This document shows positions 17,519-25,605 of a DNA stretch of 26,209 nucleotides, piece by piece (the first letter of the stretch is position 1; each line of letters opens with the position of its first letter). The DNA is from a virus. The notes below the pieces were generated by a model that saw only the letters and a list, made by a program, of their open reading frames with translations, ran no database searches and was not told the DNA's origin. The stretch lies in IMG/VR virus record IMGVR_UViG_3300037143_000001, positions 1 to 26,209 of that record; one strand, given 5' to 3'. The translations under genes were made by a program, and so were the position numbers.

Positions 17519-19498
17519 CTAGGACTCGATGTGGTGCAAAGCGTCGAGGCTCTTCGCCTTACGCGCTGCCTTGGACCGAACCGCAGGGCCGCTGGCCGCC
17601 GGTGGCTTGGGTGTCTTGCTGGTGTCAGCGAACGGCGCTGCCGGAACGCTGGCGAACATGCGCTGGACGACCTTCGGGCTCGTCCGGTCGGTGAACCGGG
17701 CAAGCGCTACCGGGTCGTGGCGCAGGCGATCTATGAAGGCGTCGGTCGTGGACCGCACGCCGGAACTAGCGCCCTCGTTGGCCGGGAACGTCACCGGACC
17801 AAGCTCGAGCACTTGAGCATTCGTGATGGTCCGAAGCGGCAGCCCTTTCGGGTTGTCGATCGTGACCTTGCCGGAACGGTCCCACTGGTCCATGCGGACG
17901 ATGAAGCGGAACGATGCCCCGAGTTGGGAGCCGACCGTCTCGCCGGACATGAGCAGCCCGCGGAGCGCAGGCAGCACGAAGTTGCGGTTGTAGTCGGTGT
18001 CGAGGAGCGGGACCTCGTAGTACCCGCCGATGGCGTCCTCGCGGAGCGTCGAGAGCGGGCCCAGCGGCTTGTTGCCGAGCTGCGGATCGAAGCCGTGGTC
18101 GTAGAGCACCCGCATCGACGACTTGTCGCCCTGGATCGTCTCTGAGTAGGCACCGGGAGCGACGCGCTCAAGGAACTGGCCCTCGAACCACGAGTCGATC
18201 TCGTACCACTCGTTGAACGTGCTGAAATAGCCGAACATGAGCGAGCCGCTCTGGCCGGCGGGCGTCGACGTCGCATCGCGGAGCAGGACGCTCGGGGCGC
18301 CAGGGCTGGAATGGCGGGCACGGAGCAGGTTCTCCATCGGCGTCTTGTGGCGCTGAGGGTCCTCGATGCCAGGGTCGGGCGTGTTCGCCTCGTCGGTCGG
18401 GTCGTCCACGGTCACGACCGGCGCGCCGTTGCCGAGGAACTGGCCGCACTGGTCGCAGTAGTCGGCGTCGGAATCGTTCGAGGCGCCGCAGTATGAGCAC
18501 ACCGGCTCACCGTCGGCAGCGTCTCCACCACCGGGCGTGGCCGCTGCAGCCTGGGCGTTGGCGTCCACGAGTTCGAGGCCGCCGTCGGTATCGTCAGCCG
18601 CGTAACCTGCCTGGTAGAACGGGTAATCGTCAGGGTCCGCATTGGGATGGGACGCCGCGAAGTCGGCCGCCGACATCTGAGGGACACCAGCCGACTTGTC
18701 GCCCTTGCCTGCCTGGTAGTCGGCGTTGTCGGTTGCGACGGCCCGCCACATACCCTTCTTGGCTGCGGCGTTGGCCTCCGGTGCTGGCACGTACTCGGTC
18801 TGCTCAACGACCTGAATCGGGTCACCGGTGAACGTGACGACATCACTAGCGTCGATCGAGTAGTTCAGCTGCCAGTCGCCAGGCTCGTCGCCGCCGTAGC
18901 GGTGGAACACGACCCACTCGTCGCTTAAGTCCCGGACCCAGATGTCGATGTCGCCGACGCCGTCCTCAGCGTCCTTGCCGAGTTCCACGATGAGCGCCGC
19001 ATAGACGAGCGATTGGATGTCGCCGAATGACGTGGAGTCGTCGACGCGCTGCTCCGCTGTCTTGGGCGGGTTGGCGCGACAGAACGCATACCAACGCTCA
19101 CGCCTGGAGTTTGCCTCGACGGTCTGGAGTTCAGGGATGTCTTTCTGGTCAACGCCGCTGTCCCGGTAGTGCGCAGCGAGGTGGTTCCACACGGCCTGGC
19201 GGTCACCGGACGGGATGACCGAGTTGCCACCGTGGGCGCCGTTGAGCGCTCCCATGGTTGCCTGAAAGCCCTTCTCGTTGGCGTCGCCAGGGATCCCCTT
19301 TGCATCGACGTCGTGGTGAGGCCCCCAGCCGTCCTCCTTGTCGGTCCCGTCGGCGTCGGCGTCCGTCTCGCCCTCGTCAATCCAGGCGTACAGCTTCGGG
19401 AAGTCGCCAGCCACCTTGTCGAACGCCGTCTCGGCGGCCGGGCCGTTCCAAGAACCGGTCTTATCGATGGCGGTGTGGTGTATGGGAGCTGCTGGCAT
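17519..19498 (-). CDS. Prohead protease fused to N-terminal accessory domains and a zinc ribbon
   Basis: This 659-residue protein is several times longer than a simple prohead protease. Residues about 1-115 match a domain often fused to phage proteases (DFPKLYAWIDEG, GPHHDVDAKG, AVWNHLAAHYRDSG). Residues about 165-235 form a second domain (DIWVRDLSDEWVVFHRYGGD). Residues about 330-355 are a zinc ribbon (CSYCGASND, DYCDQCGQ). Residues about 418-575 are the HK97-type serine protease (GYFSTFNEWYEIDS, LYDHG near 466, LGASFRF near 528, LGPVTFPANEG). Residues after 600 form a basic tail. It should cut the capsid delta domain during prohead maturation. The ATG has GAGGTG five bases upstream. Confidence 0.85.
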   Translation of the reverse strand: MPAAPIHHTAIDKTGSWNGPAAETAFDKVAGDFPKLYAWIDEGETDADADGTDKEDGWGPHHDVDAKGIPGDANEKGFQATMGALNGAHGGNSVIPSGDRQAVWNHLAAHYRDSGVDQKDIPELQTVEANSRRERWYAFCRANPPKTAEQRVDDSTSFGDIQSLVYAALIVELGKDAEDGVGDIDIWVRDLSDEWVVFHRYGGDEPGDWQLNYSIDASDVVTFTGDPIQVVEQTEYVPAPEANAAAKKGMWRAVATDNADYQAGKGDKSAGVPQMSAADFAASHPNADPDDYPFYQAGYAADDTDGGLELVDANAQAAAATPGGGDAADGEPVCSYCGASNDSDADYCDQCGQFLGNGAPVVTVDDPTDEANTPDPGIEDPQRHKTPMENLLRARHSSPGAPSVLLRDATSTPAGQSGSLMFGYFSTFNEWYEIDSWFEGQFLERVAPGAYSETIQGDKSSMRVLYDHGFDPQLGNKPLGPLSTLREDAIGGYYEVPLLDTDYNRNFVLPALRGLLMSGETVGSQLGASFRFIVRMDQWDRSGKVTIDNPKGLPLRTITNAQVLELGPVTFPANEGASSGVRSTTDAFIDRLRHDPVALARFTDRTSPKVVQRMFASVPAAPFADTSKTPKPPAASGPAVRSKAARKAKSLDALHHIES

Positions 19499-19537: not shown

Positions 19538-20830
19538 TTAAGCACCGGCCGGCGATGGCGCCGGGTTCTTGATCGTCGGGGCCGGGACGTCAGCATCGGG
19601 CGTCTCTAGGTCGTCGTCGGCAGGCAATCTCGGATCCGGCTGGGCTTCGCCACCAGGAGGCAGCGTGGGCCCGGGCTTCTGCAGCTGCACCGAGACGAGC
19701 CCGGTGTGCTTGAGAAGTGTGAAGTCGCCGGTGAGGACGGCCTGGATCACGGTGTCGGGCTCGAAGCCTGCCTGGATGTAGGTCAGGATCGTCTTCGCGT
19801 CCTCAGACTTGATCGTGGCGGCCTCGGTCTCGTCCTCCTGCAGGAACGGGACGTCACGGCCGTCGTACCAGAGGCGAGAGCCAGCGGGGACGGCGACGAG
19901 TGTCGAGAGCGCGCCTGCCGCCGTGCGCCACAGGGGCCGCATCGTGGCGTCGGAGAACCGCCGCCGGGTGGAGGCGTAGTTCCCGGCGTTGAGTGCCGAG
20001 CCCTGCATCCCCTCGGACAGCGAGAGCAACGTCGGCGGGACACCGGCAGCCGAGGCGATCCGGAGTTCGCCAGCGCCCTGCACCGCGTTGATATTGAGCT
20101 GCTGGAAGTTGGAGCCGACGACCTTCACGTCCGCACCAGCGCCGAGGTAGAGGGTCTTGAAGCCGGACTGCGGACCGGTGTGGGCCGACTCGAGCTTGTC
20201 CTTGAACTTGTCGAAGGCTTCCTGGGAAACACCCTGTTGGAACTGCACGACGAGCGATGGCGTGGCTGCGTTCTTCAAGAAGGAGTGCTTGAAGTCGGAC
20301 ATGTCGAGGTAGGCGATGATGTCCGGCAACAGCGAGTTCATCCACGAGATGCCACGGAACTCGAAGTCGGGGTCAGGTATCGGCCGGTAGTGGCAGACCT
20401 CTTCGGGCAGGAATGTGGAGGTGACCTGGCCCTTTAGGTTCTTCACGATGTAGCCGACAAGCAGCTTGCCGTAGCCGAGCCCGGTCTCCACGTCCTCGGC
20501 ATCCACCGTGGCGATCGAGACCGACGTCGGCTTGAGCCGGATCAGCTGCTGGCCGCCTGGCGACTTCACCCAGTACGAGTTGCCGTACAGCGACGCGTCG
20601 ACTTCCATGCGGGAGAGCAGGTCGCCTGTCGTCGCCATCGGCCAAGGGGTCTCGAGCAGCGTCAGGTCCTGAGTCCCGAACAACTTGCCGGGACGCCCTG
20701 CCTGCCAGCCCTGGAAGGTGAAGCGGACCTCGGAGAACACCATCAGCCGGAGAGCGATGCACGCCCACACGATCGGGTTGCGCTTGGCCTGCGAGGCGGT
20801 CATCTCTTCGATGCCGCCCGACGGCATCAC
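19538..20830 (-). CDS. Portal protein, main part
   Basis: This 430-residue reading frame is a phage portal that forms the DNA channel at the capsid vertex. NPIVWACIALRLMVFSEVRF, GRPGKLFGTQDLTLLETPWP, TTGDLLSRMEVDASLYGNSY and LRIASAAGVPPTLLSLSEGM are typical portal segments. The C-terminus is Pro/Asp-rich. The only starts in this frame (GTG at 20830, ATG at 20827) have no Shine-Dalgarno, and homologous residues (GFNGVSYV) are encoded upstream in the same frame back to an in-frame TGA at about 20861-20863. The true N-terminus appears to lie in a separate frame (20874-20963). A joined protein would be 466 residues. Confidence 0.9.
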   Translation of the reverse strand: MMPSGGIEEMTASQAKRNPIVWACIALRLMVFSEVRFTFQGWQAGRPGKLFGTQDLTLLETPWPMATTGDLLSRMEVDASLYGNSYWVKSPGGQQLIRLKPTSVSIATVDAEDVETGLGYGKLLVGYIVKNLKGQVTSTFLPEEVCHYRPIPDPDFEFRGISWMNSLLPDIIAYLDMSDFKHSFLKNAATPSLVVQFQQGVSQEAFDKFKDKLESAHTGPQSGFKTLYLGAGADVKVVGSNFQQLNINAVQGAGELRIASAAGVPPTLLSLSEGMQGSALNAGNYASTRRRFSDATMRPLWRTAAGALSTLVAVPAGSRLWYDGRDVPFLQEDETEAATIKSEDAKTILTYIQAGFEPDTVIQAVLTGDFTLLKHTGLVSVQLQKPGPTLPPGGEAQPDPRLPADDDLETPDADVPAPTIKNPAPSPAGA

Positions 20831-20851
20831 ATAACTTACGCCATTGAATCC

Positions 20852-20879
20852 AAACTGCTCTCAGGTGCGCTCGCTAGAA
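20852..20879 (-). other. Candidate translational bypass (take-off TTC-TAG, landing TTT) in the portal gene
   Basis: The take-off codon TTC (20877-20879) is followed at once by TAG, and 22 nt later TTT (20852-20854) starts the main portal frame. Both codons are read by the same Phe tRNA. Joining them gives DYLRLF-GFNGVSYV, with the motif spacing expected of portals. A +1 shift hits TGA after four codons, and a -1 shift hits TAA within 13 codons, so simple frameshifting does not solve it. A mutation or an assembly error is the alternative. Confidence 0.45.
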
Positions 20880-20963
20880 GAGGCGAAGGTAATCCGGGAA
20901 ACTCAGAGTTCCTGAGTCAGACCGGCCTTCGCCTCTCGGTCGACGAATGAGGTTCGTCAACAT
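20874..20963 (-). CDS. Portal N-terminal ORF (29 aa) ending at TTC-TAG
   Basis: The ATG follows AAGGAGGTGAT (20970-20980), an 11-base perfect match to the 16S rRNA anti-Shine-Dalgarno, with 6 nt between. The 29 codons read MLTNLIRRPRG, EGRSDSG, TLSFPDYLRLF and stop at TAG. The final segment is what normally precedes the F-x-F-N/G-G-x-x-Y motif near the start of actinobacteriophage portals, and that motif reappears in the main portal frame as GFNGVSYV. This ORF is therefore the front of the portal, interrupted by a stop and a frame change, rather than an independent gene. Confidence 0.75.
   Translation of the reverse strand: MLTNLIRRPRGEGRSDSGTLSFPDYLRLF
20879..20936 (-). other. Nested RNA hairpin ending at the portal break
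   Basis: On the minus-strand transcript, AGAGGCGAAGG (20926-20936) pairs perfectly with CCTTCGCCTCT (20879-20889). Inside it CCGG (20922-20925) pairs with CCGG (20894-20897), and ACTCAG (20912-20917) pairs with CTGAGT (20901-20906) around a 5 nt loop. That makes about 21 pairs in 58 nt, ending on the first base of the TTC codon before TAG. Confidence 0.7.
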
Positions 20964-20969
20964 GCGGGC

Positions 20970-21046
20970 ATCACCTCCTTGGAAGTTGGGGAGGCAAGTA
21001 CCTGCTCCCATGGACGACTCCGGCAGACGCCGGAGCAACTGAACCG
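20970..21046 (-). promoter_or_regulatory. Portal leader: hairpin plus strong Shine-Dalgarno
   Basis: The gap between the Ala-rich gene and the portal leader ORF holds a perfect 7-bp hairpin with a 4 nt loop (CTCCGGC at 21018-21024, GCCGGAG at 21029-21035), without a following T-run on either strand. It also holds the Shine-Dalgarno AAGGAGGTGAT at 20970-20980. A CCTCC at 20990-20994 could pair with the GGAGG at 20974-20978 and partly hide it. I see no convincing promoter here. Confidence 0.5.
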
Positions 21047-21454
21047 TTAAGCGGGCGGGGCGCCGCCAAGGTGGAGAGCCGTCTCGACGTCCTGCTCGAC
21101 GGTCTTCAGCTCGTCGACGACCTTCTCGCCGAAGGACTCGGACTCGGCCACGAATGCGGGCACGTCGGTTGCCGCTGCTGCGATGTCAGTGGCCGCTGCT
21201 GCGACTTCGGTGGCGCCGGGGATCGGGAGGTCCTTCACGACGGAGGCGACCTCTGTGGCCGCCGCGGCTACGTCTGGAGCGACCTTGGCAGCCTCGGCCA
21301 CGTAGGCGTCGACGTCGGTCGTCAGATCGAGCTTGCCGATGCGGCCGACGAAGCTGAGGGCTGTCGCGCCGTACTTCTTGGCGACGGTCTGGAGTTCCTT
21401 GACGAACCCAGCTTCGTCGTCGGTCAATCCTGCGAGGTCAGCGGACCAGTTCAT
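21047..21454 (-). CDS. Ala-rich helical hypothetical protein
   Basis: This 135-residue protein begins MNWSADLAGLTDDEAGFVKE, one base after the stop of the upstream membrane-protein gene (TAACATG). Residues about 60-115 are low complexity and strongly helical, built on repeated AAAAT-x-V units (AAAATEVASVVKD, TEVAAAATDIAAAATDVPAF). The end (EKVVDELKTVEQDVETALHL) is amphipathic. No family is recognised. It has no signal peptide or membrane helix. It belongs to a three-gene insert between terminase and portal, where phages often place accessory genes. Confidence 0.6.
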   Translation of the reverse strand: MNWSADLAGLTDDEAGFVKELQTVAKKYGATALSFVGRIGKLDLTTDVDAYVAEAAKVAPDVAAAATEVASVVKDLPIPGATEVAAAATDIAAAATDVPAFVAESESFGEKVVDELKTVEQDVETALHLGGAPPA

Positions 21455-21455
21455 G

Positions 21456-21635
21456 TTATTTGATGTCCTTCTGTGAGGGCGGCGAGTCACCGCGTTCGAG
21501 TGCGATTCCGAATAGGACAAGGCCGGCGCCGAGGGTCACGATCCCGGCCCAGACGGCCAGGAAGCCGACGCCACCGGCGACAGCGAGGACGCCAAGCGCT
21601 TCGAGCAGCGAGGCGACGATGCGCGTCCAGTTCAC
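21456..21635 (-). CDS. Small two-helix membrane protein (59 aa)
   Basis: A 59-codon ORF starts at a GTG that overlaps the dioxygenase stop by 4 nt (GTGA) and ends one base before the next ATG. Residues about 9-27 and 28-47 are hydrophobic (LLEALGVLAVAGGVGFLAVW, IVTLGAGLVLFGIAL) and should form a helical hairpin in the membrane, followed by a polar tail (ERGDSPPSQKDIK). Its N-terminus (VNWTR) resembles that of the next gene (MNWSA). Small hydrophobic proteins between terminase and portal are common in actinobacteriophages, with unknown role. The tight spacing supports it. Confidence 0.65.
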   Translation of the reverse strand: MNWTRIVASLLEALGVLAVAGGVGFLAVWAGIVTLGAGLVLFGIALERGDSPPSQKDIK

Positions 21636-22261
21636 GCGCCCAGCCAGACCGTCGAGTGATCCCCGGCCGCTTCGGGTGCAGGCTCAGGCGAGTAGTAGTA
21701 GACGGCGACCGACCGGCGAGGCTCCGGTCCAGCCCATGGTGTCGGGTGGCCGTGCCAGGAGCGGTCCGAGGTGGCGAAGATGACCGTCCGGTTCATCTGA
21801 GGGGCGACCGTGACCTCGCAGTCCTTGCCGAGCAGCAGTGCGCCGCCCCACTCAGGACGCCAGCCCTTGTTCAGGTAGACGAGGCAGTTAAGCCGCCTGT
21901 ACAAGTCGCCGACTCCGCGGTTGAAGTCGACGTGCATGGCCAGGCGTCCACCGGTGACGATCTGGTGATACCCGCCGCCGGTCGTGTCGGGCGTCAGGTC
22001 GGGGATGACGAAGGCTTCCGACAGGGCCGAGCACCAGGGCCGCGAGGACAGCAGGGTTAAGAACCCCCTGGTCATCTCGCCCCACATCGACTGGTCGGAC
22101 CCTTCGAGCTTGCCTTCCTCGCGTTCCCCGCCAAACCGCTTCCACGACGGGTGATCCTCGTCAGGGATCTCAGCGAGAACCGAGTCGAGTTGGCTTTGGA
22201 GCCAGAAGTCGTCGAGCACGAGGTGGGGGAACGGTTCGGTGGCCGGAACAGGGAGGACCAT
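21632..22261 (-). CDS. 2-oxoglutarate/Fe(II)-dependent dioxygenase (prolyl-hydroxylase-like)
   Basis: This 209-residue protein has the double-stranded beta-helix of 2OG-Fe(II) dioxygenases. GRLAMHVDFN supplies H110 and D112, SWHGHPTP supplies the distal His (H170, or H172), and PRRSVAVYYYS supplies the 2OG-binding Arg near 182-183. The central LNCLVYLNKGWRPEWGGALL is typical of the prolyl 4-hydroxylase-like branch. The ATG follows the terminase stop by 14 nt with AAGGA upstream; longer frames only overlap the terminase. It would hydroxylate a protein side chain or another small target using 2-oxoglutarate and oxygen. The target is unknown, but a virion protein is plausible given the location. 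Confidence 0.85.
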   Translation of the reverse strand: MVLPVPATEPFPHLVLDDFWLQSQLDSVLAEIPDEDHPSWKRFGGEREEGKLEGSDQSMWGEMTRGFLTLLSSRPWCSALSEAFVIPDLTPDTTGGGYHQIVTGGRLAMHVDFNRGVGDLYRRLNCLVYLNKGWRPEWGGALLLGKDCEVTVAPQMNRTVIFATSDRSWHGHPTPWAGPEPRRSVAVYYYSPEPAPEAAGDHSTVWLGA

Positions 22262-24083: not shown

Positions 24084-24455
24084 ATGAAGGCACTCACGAT
24101 CCGCCAGCCTTGGGCCAGCCTGATCATGGATGGATCGAAGGACGTCGAGAACCGCAGCCGTCCGACGAAGTACCGGGGCATCCTCGTCATCCACGCAGGT
24201 CTCGCCGACGATCCGACCGAGCCAGCCGACGCTGACCTCCCCCGAGGAGCGATCATCGGAACGGTCCGGCTCGTCGACTGTGTGCGAGACAGTGAAAGCC
24301 CGTGGGCCAGGGCCGATCAGTGGCATTGGATACTGGCCGACCCCCGCCCGTGCCGGCCGCGCCCCGCTAAAGGCCAGCTCGGCTTGTGGTCGCTCAGCCC
24401 GAGAGACTGGGCGTGGGTTCGGCGCACCCGGATCTCGCGACGGGTCACCGCCTGA
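24084..24455 (+). CDS. ASCH domain protein
   Basis: This 123-residue protein is an ASCH (PUA-like, RNA/nucleotide-binding) domain. KALTIRQPWASLIMDGSKDV followed by ENRSRPTKYRG and ILVIHAG is the classic N-terminal signature, GAIIGTVRLVD is the central strand, and GQLGLWSL is the C-terminal one. Family members bind RNA, and some hydrolyse modified nucleosides such as N4-acetylcytidine. The start is fixed by the promoter, not by a ribosome site. It is one of only two plus-strand genes, and its 3' end overlaps the convergent ABC-GNAT gene by 11 nt, so expression is likely independent of, or antagonistic to, the minus-strand operon. Confidence 0.88.
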   Translation: MKALTIRQPWASLIMDGSKDVENRSRPTKYRGILVIHAGLADDPTEPADADLPRGAIIGTVRLVDCVRDSESPWARADQWHWILADPRPCRPRPAKGQLGLWSLSPRDWAWVRRTRISRRVTA

Positions 24456-25605
24456 CCTTGTGGCCTCTTGGGCGCATCCGCCGGCCATCGGTCCTCGTGG
24501 GCACCGCCAACAGCAGGTCCCGGTCCTGGCCGATGGTCTTGGGGCCGACATACTCGAAACTCGCCGTGTATCTATGGGTCGATTGAGCGATAGTCGCCGC
24601 GCCTTGGCCTGAGGGTCGGACCATCGAGGGCTTCCGGGCCATCAGCCAGAGGGGCGACCGCGCCCGGTGCTTGATCATGGACGGGCTCGACGTGACGCTC
24701 CGGTAGCGGAAGCCGTGGCCCTTGTACAGCGAGGCGACATACTCCGAGAGACGGTTGCCGAGGCCGACACCTTGGAAGTCAGGCAGCACCACCGTGCGAT
24801 GTTCCCGCCAGATCAGCCCGTGGTTGTTTATGGGGAATGGGATGGCCGATGCGAACCCCGCTGGGGCGCCCTCGACCCTGGCCAGGTAGCAATGGGCCGA
24901 CTTGACCAGCTTCCCGGTCAGATAGTGATGGCGACGGAAGGTCTCCCACTCGCCGGGGTCGCATCGTTCGATCGTGACCGGGATCTTGGGACGGGGTTGA
25001 AGGGACCTCCAAGTGAACTGACCTGGGCCGCAGTCGTAAACCCAGTCGGGCTGTAACCAGTCGAGGATGTCGGAGTGACACGAGGCGACGATGAGTTGCC
25101 GCTCGGAACGGCGGATGTACTTCGCAACGGCGGCGGATGCCACCTTGGCCACCCGGCGATCGACGAGGGACGTGAACTCGTCCACGACCATCGAGCCGTC
25201 GCTCTCCAACAGGCGCCGGGCAAGCTCGGCACGGAACTGCTCGCCGTTGGAGAGGACTGAGAACGGCCGCAGCCATGACGGCGGCGAGGAGAACCCGACG
25301 GCGGAGAGTGCCGAGGTGACCTCTTGCGCCCCGAACGCCGGATCGAAGGCGTCAACCACGGCCCGGTCAGAGGGCCACTCGAGCGGCGCGGGGGAGGCGA
25401 ACATCTCAGCGAGGATGGTGGACTTGCCTGAGCCGGACGGGCCGACGATGGCCCCGATGAGCCAGGGGCGCTCGTCAAAGGGCAGATCCACGTCCCAGGC
25501 GAGCTCTGACGCCTTCGCAGCGGGGATATCGAAGATTCCCTCGACCTGGACGACCCGAGGCGACCTGACGATCTCAGAGCGTCTCAGGATGTGAGTGCGC
25601 GGCAC
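24445..25605 (-). CDS. ABC-type ATPase fused to GNAT/Mom-like transferase
   Basis: This 386-residue fusion has an ABC ATPase at about 15-205: Walker A GPSGSGKST (55-63), signature-like LSNGEQFRAELARRL (118-132), Walker B SMVVDEF (138-144) and an H-loop ASCHSD (H177). No membrane segment is present, so it is not a transporter. From about 210 a GNAT fold follows: FRRHHYLTG (H227-Y228), AGFASAIPFP, and the acetyl-CoA loop VVLPDFQGVGLGNRLSEYVA. The HY motif placed before the GNAT core recalls the Mom family of phage Mu, which modifies adenine in DNA. A DNA-modifying role is likely but unproven. The GTG start lies 22 nt inside the ParB-like gene, with GGAGG seven bases upstream. Confidence 0.8.
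   Translation of the reverse strand: MPRTHILRRSEIVRSPRVVQVEGIFDIPAAKASELAWDVDLPFDERPWLIGAIVGPSGSGKSTILAEMFASPAPLEWPSDRAVVDAFDPAFGAQEVTSALSAVGFSSPPSWLRPFSVLSNGEQFRAELARRLLESDGSMVVDEFTSLVDRRVAKVASAAVAKYIRRSERQLIVASCHSDILDWLQPDWVYDCGPGQFTWRSLQPRPKIPVTIERCDPGEWETFRRHHYLTGKLVKSAHCYLARVEGAPAGFASAIPFPINNHGLIWREHRTVVLPDFQGVGLGNRLSEYVASLYKGHGFRYRSVTSSPSMIKHRARSPLWLMARKPSMVRPSGQGAATIAQSTHRYTASFEYVGPKTIGQDRDLLLAVPTRTDGRRMRPRGHKVRR

Follow-up and report, generated by a model that had tools for sequence, protein, structure and literature searches.

A short stop-bounded insert in a phage portal gene as a candidate for ribosome bypassing

Known cases of bypassing and the portal locus

To our knowledge, programmed bypassing is firmly established only for one phage gene and for yeast mitochondria. 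In the model proposed for T4 gene 60, the upper part of a 5' stem is already in place outside the ribosome when take-off occurs, and the mRNA is pulled as the lower stem finishes pairing; the gap has been proposed to give protection from an endonuclease (PMC5009743). The locus described here is the portal gene in a 26,209-nt stretch of DNA (IMG/VR record IMGVR_UViG_3300037143_000001, positions 1-26,209; hereafter the window). Similar to gene 60, it has a UAG right after the candidate take-off codon, matched or synonymous codons for take-off and landing, a strong predicted 5' stem-loop whose final pairing would have to wait until the ribosome moves off the take-off codon, and a gap within the tolerated length; a GAG just 5' of the landing codon and an association with a homing endonuclease are possible further parallels (PMC5009743, PMC2988022, PMC11194080). 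The differences are that gene 60 encodes a topoisomerase and has a 50-nt gap, whereas the gap considered here is of 16-22 nt in a portal gene; that the window has neither a clear take-off stem-loop nor a known nascent-peptide signal; and that the endonuclease is found in a related contig, L054, not in the window.

Three further systems invite comparison. In the mycobacteriophage Corndog, peptides of the tape-measure gene were seen by mass spectrometry without a canonical start, with bypassing or an atypical start as the proposed explanation (PMC4351075). As in the present case, a phage structural gene is affected, there with an HNH gene inserted upstream (PMC4351075), but the Corndog protein is proven and the interruption is a whole endonuclease gene instead of a short insert. 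As cited in PMC5009743, short bypassing was also suggested in an actinophage packaging gene, the terminase of Streptomyces phage Hau3, where it was proposed to depend on a UUA codon and where the gene is a terminase, not a portal. Lastly, the byp elements of Magnusiomyces mitochondria are short inserts that are skipped in translation and whose landing codons are not always matched (PMC5009743); these are read by mitochondrial ribosomes and occur in several genes, in contrast to the single insert in the window.

A portal gene divided between two reading frames

The portal of the window is of the HK97 type (PF04860, Phage_portal), and its gene, located between terminase and protease, lies on the minus strand, divided into two reading frames with the following features.

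20980-20970, minus strand: perfect Shine-Dalgarno sequence AAGGAGGTGAT, 6 nt 5' of ATG 20963
20963-20874, minus strand: ORF1, the N-terminal 29 portal codons, from ATG 20963-20961 to TAG 20876-20874
20879-20877, minus strand: putative take-off codon TTC (Phe), assigned from the sequence
20876-20861, minus strand: 16-nt insert TAGCGAGCGCACCTGA, that is, TAG-CGAGCGCACC-TGA, delimited by comparison with L027, L003, L032 and about 70 contiguous relatives
19538-20860, minus strand: ORF2, the rest of the portal, beginning EQFGFNGVSYVMPSGG; PF04860 (Pfam, 1.6e-31 for 19538-20854)
20854-20852, minus strand: putative landing codon TTT (Phe), likewise assigned, with GAGAG just before it
20830-20825, minus strand: earliest possible internal starts, GTG 20830 and ATG 20827, with no Shine-Dalgarno sequence

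The product of ORF1 is MLTNLIRRPRGEGRSDSGTLSFPDYLRLF, ending on the codons TTC-TAG; it aligns with the portal N-termini of L027, L041 and L054 and contains a run rich in Arg, located some 20 residues away from the P site. ORF2 is 67-68% identical to the portals of L027 and L054, and the two ORFs, although in different frames, jointly encode one conserved protein. Behind TGA 20863-20861, the portal frame encodes EQFGFNGVSYV ahead of any start codon. The insert bears the upstream-frame stop (TAG) at one end and the downstream-frame stop (TGA) at the other, and has no tandem duplication and no second copy anywhere in the window. The GAGAG 5' of TTT provides a Shine-Dalgarno-like GAG, but this is also the conserved Glu codon.

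An earlier, sequence-only reading had described this split, and most of its description holds: a 29-codon ORF with a perfect Shine-Dalgarno sequence ends on TTC-TAG, the rest of the frame opens behind an in-frame TGA with no ribosome site of its own, and TTC and TTT lie 22 nt apart in the correct frames. Its statement that no single shift avoids a stop is also borne out, since a +1 shift at TTC hits TGA 20863-20861 and a -1 shift hits TAA 20838-20836; a simple frameshift is thereby rejected. What that reading overlooked is a hairpin upstream of the TAG.

An identical 361-base stretch occurs in two further IMG/VR contigs. These, 3300038456_000007 and 3300050119_000020, align to the window over 10.2 and 13.8 kb at 99.98% identity, each with 2 SNPs. 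The three are almost clones of one another, and their source samples may be related rather than independent. Because the same DNA is found in three contigs, a sequencing or assembly error in one of them is unlikely.

Intact relatives place the insert at 16 nt

Relatives fetched by portal sequence carry the contiguous motif DYLRL(F/W)-E-x-F-(G/S/A)-(F/Y)-x-G, and in comparison with about 70 of them the extra DNA of the window amounts to 16 bases between TTC and GAGCAGTTT, i.e., 20876-20861. The gap had been put at 22 nt and the joined DYLRLF-GFNGVSYV taken to restore the portal motif; neither proposal is exact. The 22 nt include GAGCAG (EQ), which is still present behind the insert, and therefore a hop from TTC to TTT would give DYLRLF-GFNG in place of DYLRLF-EQF-GFNG, losing the EQF of intact relatives. 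The weight of this three-residue loss is hard to judge, as residues 1-44 of the portal are predicted by AlphaFold at low confidence (pLDDT < 50).

Alignment of related portals also revealed that the 22-nt gap is not conserved. Among about 84 distinct related portals, only those of the window and L054 are interrupted; none of 10 bacterial prophage loci, sampled from one phylum, has a broken portal frame, and the four portals checked in isolated relatives (Gordonia, Mycobacterium and Rhodococcus phages) are all intact. The sequence-only reading had named gapless relatives with intact portals as evidence against bypassing. Such relatives are indeed the rule, and an insert specific to one lineage is not refuted by them.

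A second interrupted portal

The other interrupted portal, that of L054 (IMGVR_UViG_3300050026_000198), rests on one contig. After MLSDLGRRRRRTLEEERSAGAISWPDY it has 8 additional bases, TGACTTAG, which open with a stop codon, and it continues as LRLWEQFGFNGVQYVVPGGG. This 8-nt insert, TGA-CT-TAG, lies three codons earlier than the site in the window, and the two inserts are alike in that the upstream-frame stop comes first and the downstream-frame stop last. One insert of the pair has a 5-nt tandem duplication (CTTAGCTTAG). L054 is the closest relative of the window in the portal tree: the two are neighbours among 76 portals, at a fork that is not among the best supported (98/78), and are separated by 0.79 substitutions per site. 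Because the inserts have neither sequence, length, frame nor exact site in common, they may be independent of each other.

The Shine-Dalgarno sequence of L054 (AGGAGGTGAT) is similarly strong to that of the window. Its nearest matched in-frame codon (Tyr) is 47 nt away, and a hop to it would delete 14 residues. The next possible start, GTG 3133, lies about 68 residues into the portal; thus, a restart cannot rescue L054.

A strong hairpin ends at the putative take-off codon

Three hairpins are predicted around the gap.

20961-20939, minus strand: hairpin A, 9 bp, predicted to begin 2 nt downstream of the first base of the ATG
20937-20878, minus strand: hairpin B, with a predicted 12-bp outer stem (20937-20926 with 20889-20878) and inner stems of 4 bp and 7 bp
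20829-20809, minus strand: 9-bp hairpin in ORF2 (-13.0 kcal/mol), some 25 nt downstream of the putative landing codon, a possible counterpart of the 3' stem-loop in gene 60-type bypassing

The 3' arm of hairpin B is predicted to end within the take-off codon TTC, directly upstream of TAG. By composition-corrected z-score, the hairpin region ranks first of 2615 on the minus strand of the window; its plain energy has equals elsewhere (roughly the 1st percentile for this strand), and only the composition-corrected and position-specific scores stand out. The z of the 87-nt ORF1 is about -7, compared with a mean of -0.4 in 69 intact relatives (sd 1.0, minimum -3.4), and the closing energy of the last 15 nt of hairpin B is -20.9 kcal/mol, the minimum in the relatives being -10.2. 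A closing energy as strong was found at none of 4354 background positions, and none of 4000 synonymous-codon null sequences matched the stability or the closing energy of hairpin B; these figures, like those on codon usage below, come from comparisons chosen after seeing the data and should be read accordingly. The hairpin of L054 is mildly unusual (z of -2.2 to -2.7; closing energy of -9.1 kcal/mol).

In its predicted form, hairpin B would fit a gene 60-type 5' stem-loop able to close as the ribosome leaves the take-off codon. The stem-loop at the start of the gap is weak (-5.2 kcal/mol) and does not hold the stop within its stem. An RNA element search of the region gave no Rfam match, and no promoter or terminator was found at the hairpin.

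Codon usage and conservation of the joined protein

The first 39 codons of the window portal have a GC3 of 0.54, versus 0.87 in the remainder, a value below that of every one of 4078 equally long segments taken from ten window genes. The corresponding values in L054 are 0.59 and 0.84, and in 21 intact relatives of high GC3 the N-terminal difference is -0.05 (sd 0.06, minimum -0.16). From GTG 20830 onward, GC3 reaches 0.95 over the first 39 codons. On a larger scale, 20830-21046 (minus strand) forms an island of lower G+C that runs from the end of a 135-aa gene to GTG 20830, where codon usage becomes abruptly normal.

In the 18-residue block across the gap, both interrupted portals match the consensus at 16 of 18 positions, the best among the high-GC3 set, and the pN/pS of EQFGFNGVSYV between the window and L054 is 0.09. 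The combination of low GC3 and conserved amino acids is easier to reconcile with selection on the joined protein than with decay; relaxed decay would alter the amino acids too. It fits a segment that is translated and under extra constraint (from RNA structure, slow codons or nuclease evasion), or one that was imported and functional until recently; import could also be the source of the codon-usage anomaly.

A homing endonuclease beside the portal of L054

In intact relatives, including L027 and annotated phages, the gene order is terminase, small membrane protein, portal. The genes that bear on this arrangement are as follows.

L054 1979-2911, minus strand, antisense: GIY-YIG/NUMOD3 homing endonuclease of 310 aa (4.5e-11, 3.3e-13)
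Window 21047-21454, minus strand: 135-aa protein, by synteny in the same place as the L054 endonuclease
Window 21456-21635, minus strand: small membrane-protein gene, which adjoins the portal in intact relatives (comparison with L027 and annotated phages)

The endonuclease of L054 thus sits between the small membrane gene and the interrupted portal, and no close relatives of it were found beside other portals. The 135-aa protein of the window has no Pfam match above the cut-off and no PHROG. No GIY-YIG gene is present in the two contigs nearly identical to the window and no HNH gene in the window itself; an HNH gene beyond its right end was rejected as an endonuclease candidate, its best match being a packaging family. 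In L045, L046 and L047, genes are also inserted directly before the portal, which is uninterrupted in each; therefore, gene insertion alone is not the cause.

Several other genes of the region are unusual in their own right. A 2OG-Fe(II) oxygenase gene (PF13640, 7.6e-16; 21632-22261, minus strand) lies between the terminase and the small membrane gene of the window and is absent from that place in L027. Upstream of the terminase genes, 24445-25605 (minus strand) encodes an unusual pairing of an ABC/AAA-type P-loop with a GNAT acetyltransferase domain. The head maturation protease gene (17519-19498, minus strand) has a long N-terminal extension, the first 131 aa of which are 71% conserved in L054 and were not seen in the other relatives compared. 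The longer contig also has, farther along, a gene resembling WhiB, which suggests that the host is an actinobacterium.

A model of bypassing and its alternatives

Because the insert follows an exceptionally strong hairpin and the nearest relative has a different insert nearby, the ribosome probably jumps the portal gap. More specifically, the reading that we consider the most likely, with a probability of about 0.45, is that the portal is made by gene 60-like bypassing linked to a homing endonuclease; the chance of recoding of some form, all kinds taken together, is slightly better than even. Ribosomes would load at the perfect Shine-Dalgarno sequence, translate 29 codons through a hairpin-rich stretch rich in rare codons, and halt with TAG in the A site, the Phe-tRNA being paired to TTC. 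By then the inner portion of hairpin B would have emerged from the ribosome, and closing of the 12-bp outer stem could pull the mRNA and drive the ribosome forward across the stop-bounded insert. Landing would occur on an in-frame Phe codon, most likely TTT, after GAGAG, and the portal body would then be translated. The insert and the odd codon usage may be the trace of a homing endonuclease that targeted the DYLRL(F/W)E-region motif, such an enzyme still being present in L054 and apparently absent from the window lineage.

We infer the bypass, the landing site and the protective role of the gap. Bypassing would account for the presence of the hairpin as well as its position, for the stop and the matched codon, and for the conservation of the protein; it does not explain the retention of EQ or the route that L054 would take with matched codons. 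Of the bypass originally proposed, the real interruption, the stop after the would-be take-off codon and the in-frame synonymous landing codon stand, and are joined by the 5' hairpin and by a comparable interruption beside a homing endonuclease in the neighbour in the portal tree. The 22-nt hop as written does not stand, and L054 has no equivalent short matched hop.

Among the alternatives, a recent disabling insertion, whether the scar of an endonuclease cut followed by end-joining or a product of prophage decay, would leave no portal and genomes that are dead or helped. Stop-bearing inserts of 8 and 16 nt, one with the duplication CTTAGCTTAG, resemble repair scars, an endonuclease adjoins the portal of L054, intact relatives are the rule, and recency alone would account for the conserved amino acids. 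Yet three contigs have this allele as their consensus, the remaining structural genes of the window are uninterrupted, and the only two broken portals are each the other's closest neighbour in the tree, with breaks that fall within four codons of each other. The extreme hairpin and the matching codon-usage anomaly would also go unexplained, and we regard this scenario as unlikely.

Somewhat more doubtful is termination followed by restart, in which ORF1 would be a leader peptide and coupled re-initiation at GTG 20830 or ATG 20827 would yield a truncated working portal. This GTG-ATG pair lies 43 nt past the TAG, and codon usage is normal from exactly there. Restart would be compatible with a poorly ordered portal N-terminus, as suggested by the low confidence of residues 1-44, by the closest solved portal, 9lw9, which has 466 residues in its sequence and 395 in its model, and by another portal solved without its N-terminal tail. 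Against this, 20830 lacks a Shine-Dalgarno sequence and lies 43 nt away from the stop, no such start exists in L054, hairpin B is left unexplained, and DYLRL-EQFGFNGVSYV is kept in both the family and the window, which would not be expected of an untranslated or useless segment.

Recoding by another route is the least probable: an exact skip of 16 nt in the window and 8 nt in L054 would fit the consensus better than matched hops, but a +1 slip at TTC-TAG with TGA read-through requires two rare events in succession, a mismatched hop would land on UGA or UAG, and, as regards removal of the insert from the RNA, no Rfam element was found and we know of no case of splicing of so short a piece.

Implications for phage genes and bypassing

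Gene 60-like bypassing at this locus, if true, would be a further phage case, this one in a virion gene that is essential, and its gaps would be much shorter than that of T4. Tentatively, the window and L054 may represent a lineage of phages, possibly actinophages, in which endonuclease-linked, stop-bounded mini-inserts of the portal gene are skipped by the ribosome, aided by a long 5' hairpin. Another case would allow a test of whether bypass gaps originate as inserts that resist an endonuclease, and of which signals are minimal; it would also caution annotators that a phage gene that looks 'broken' may be functional.
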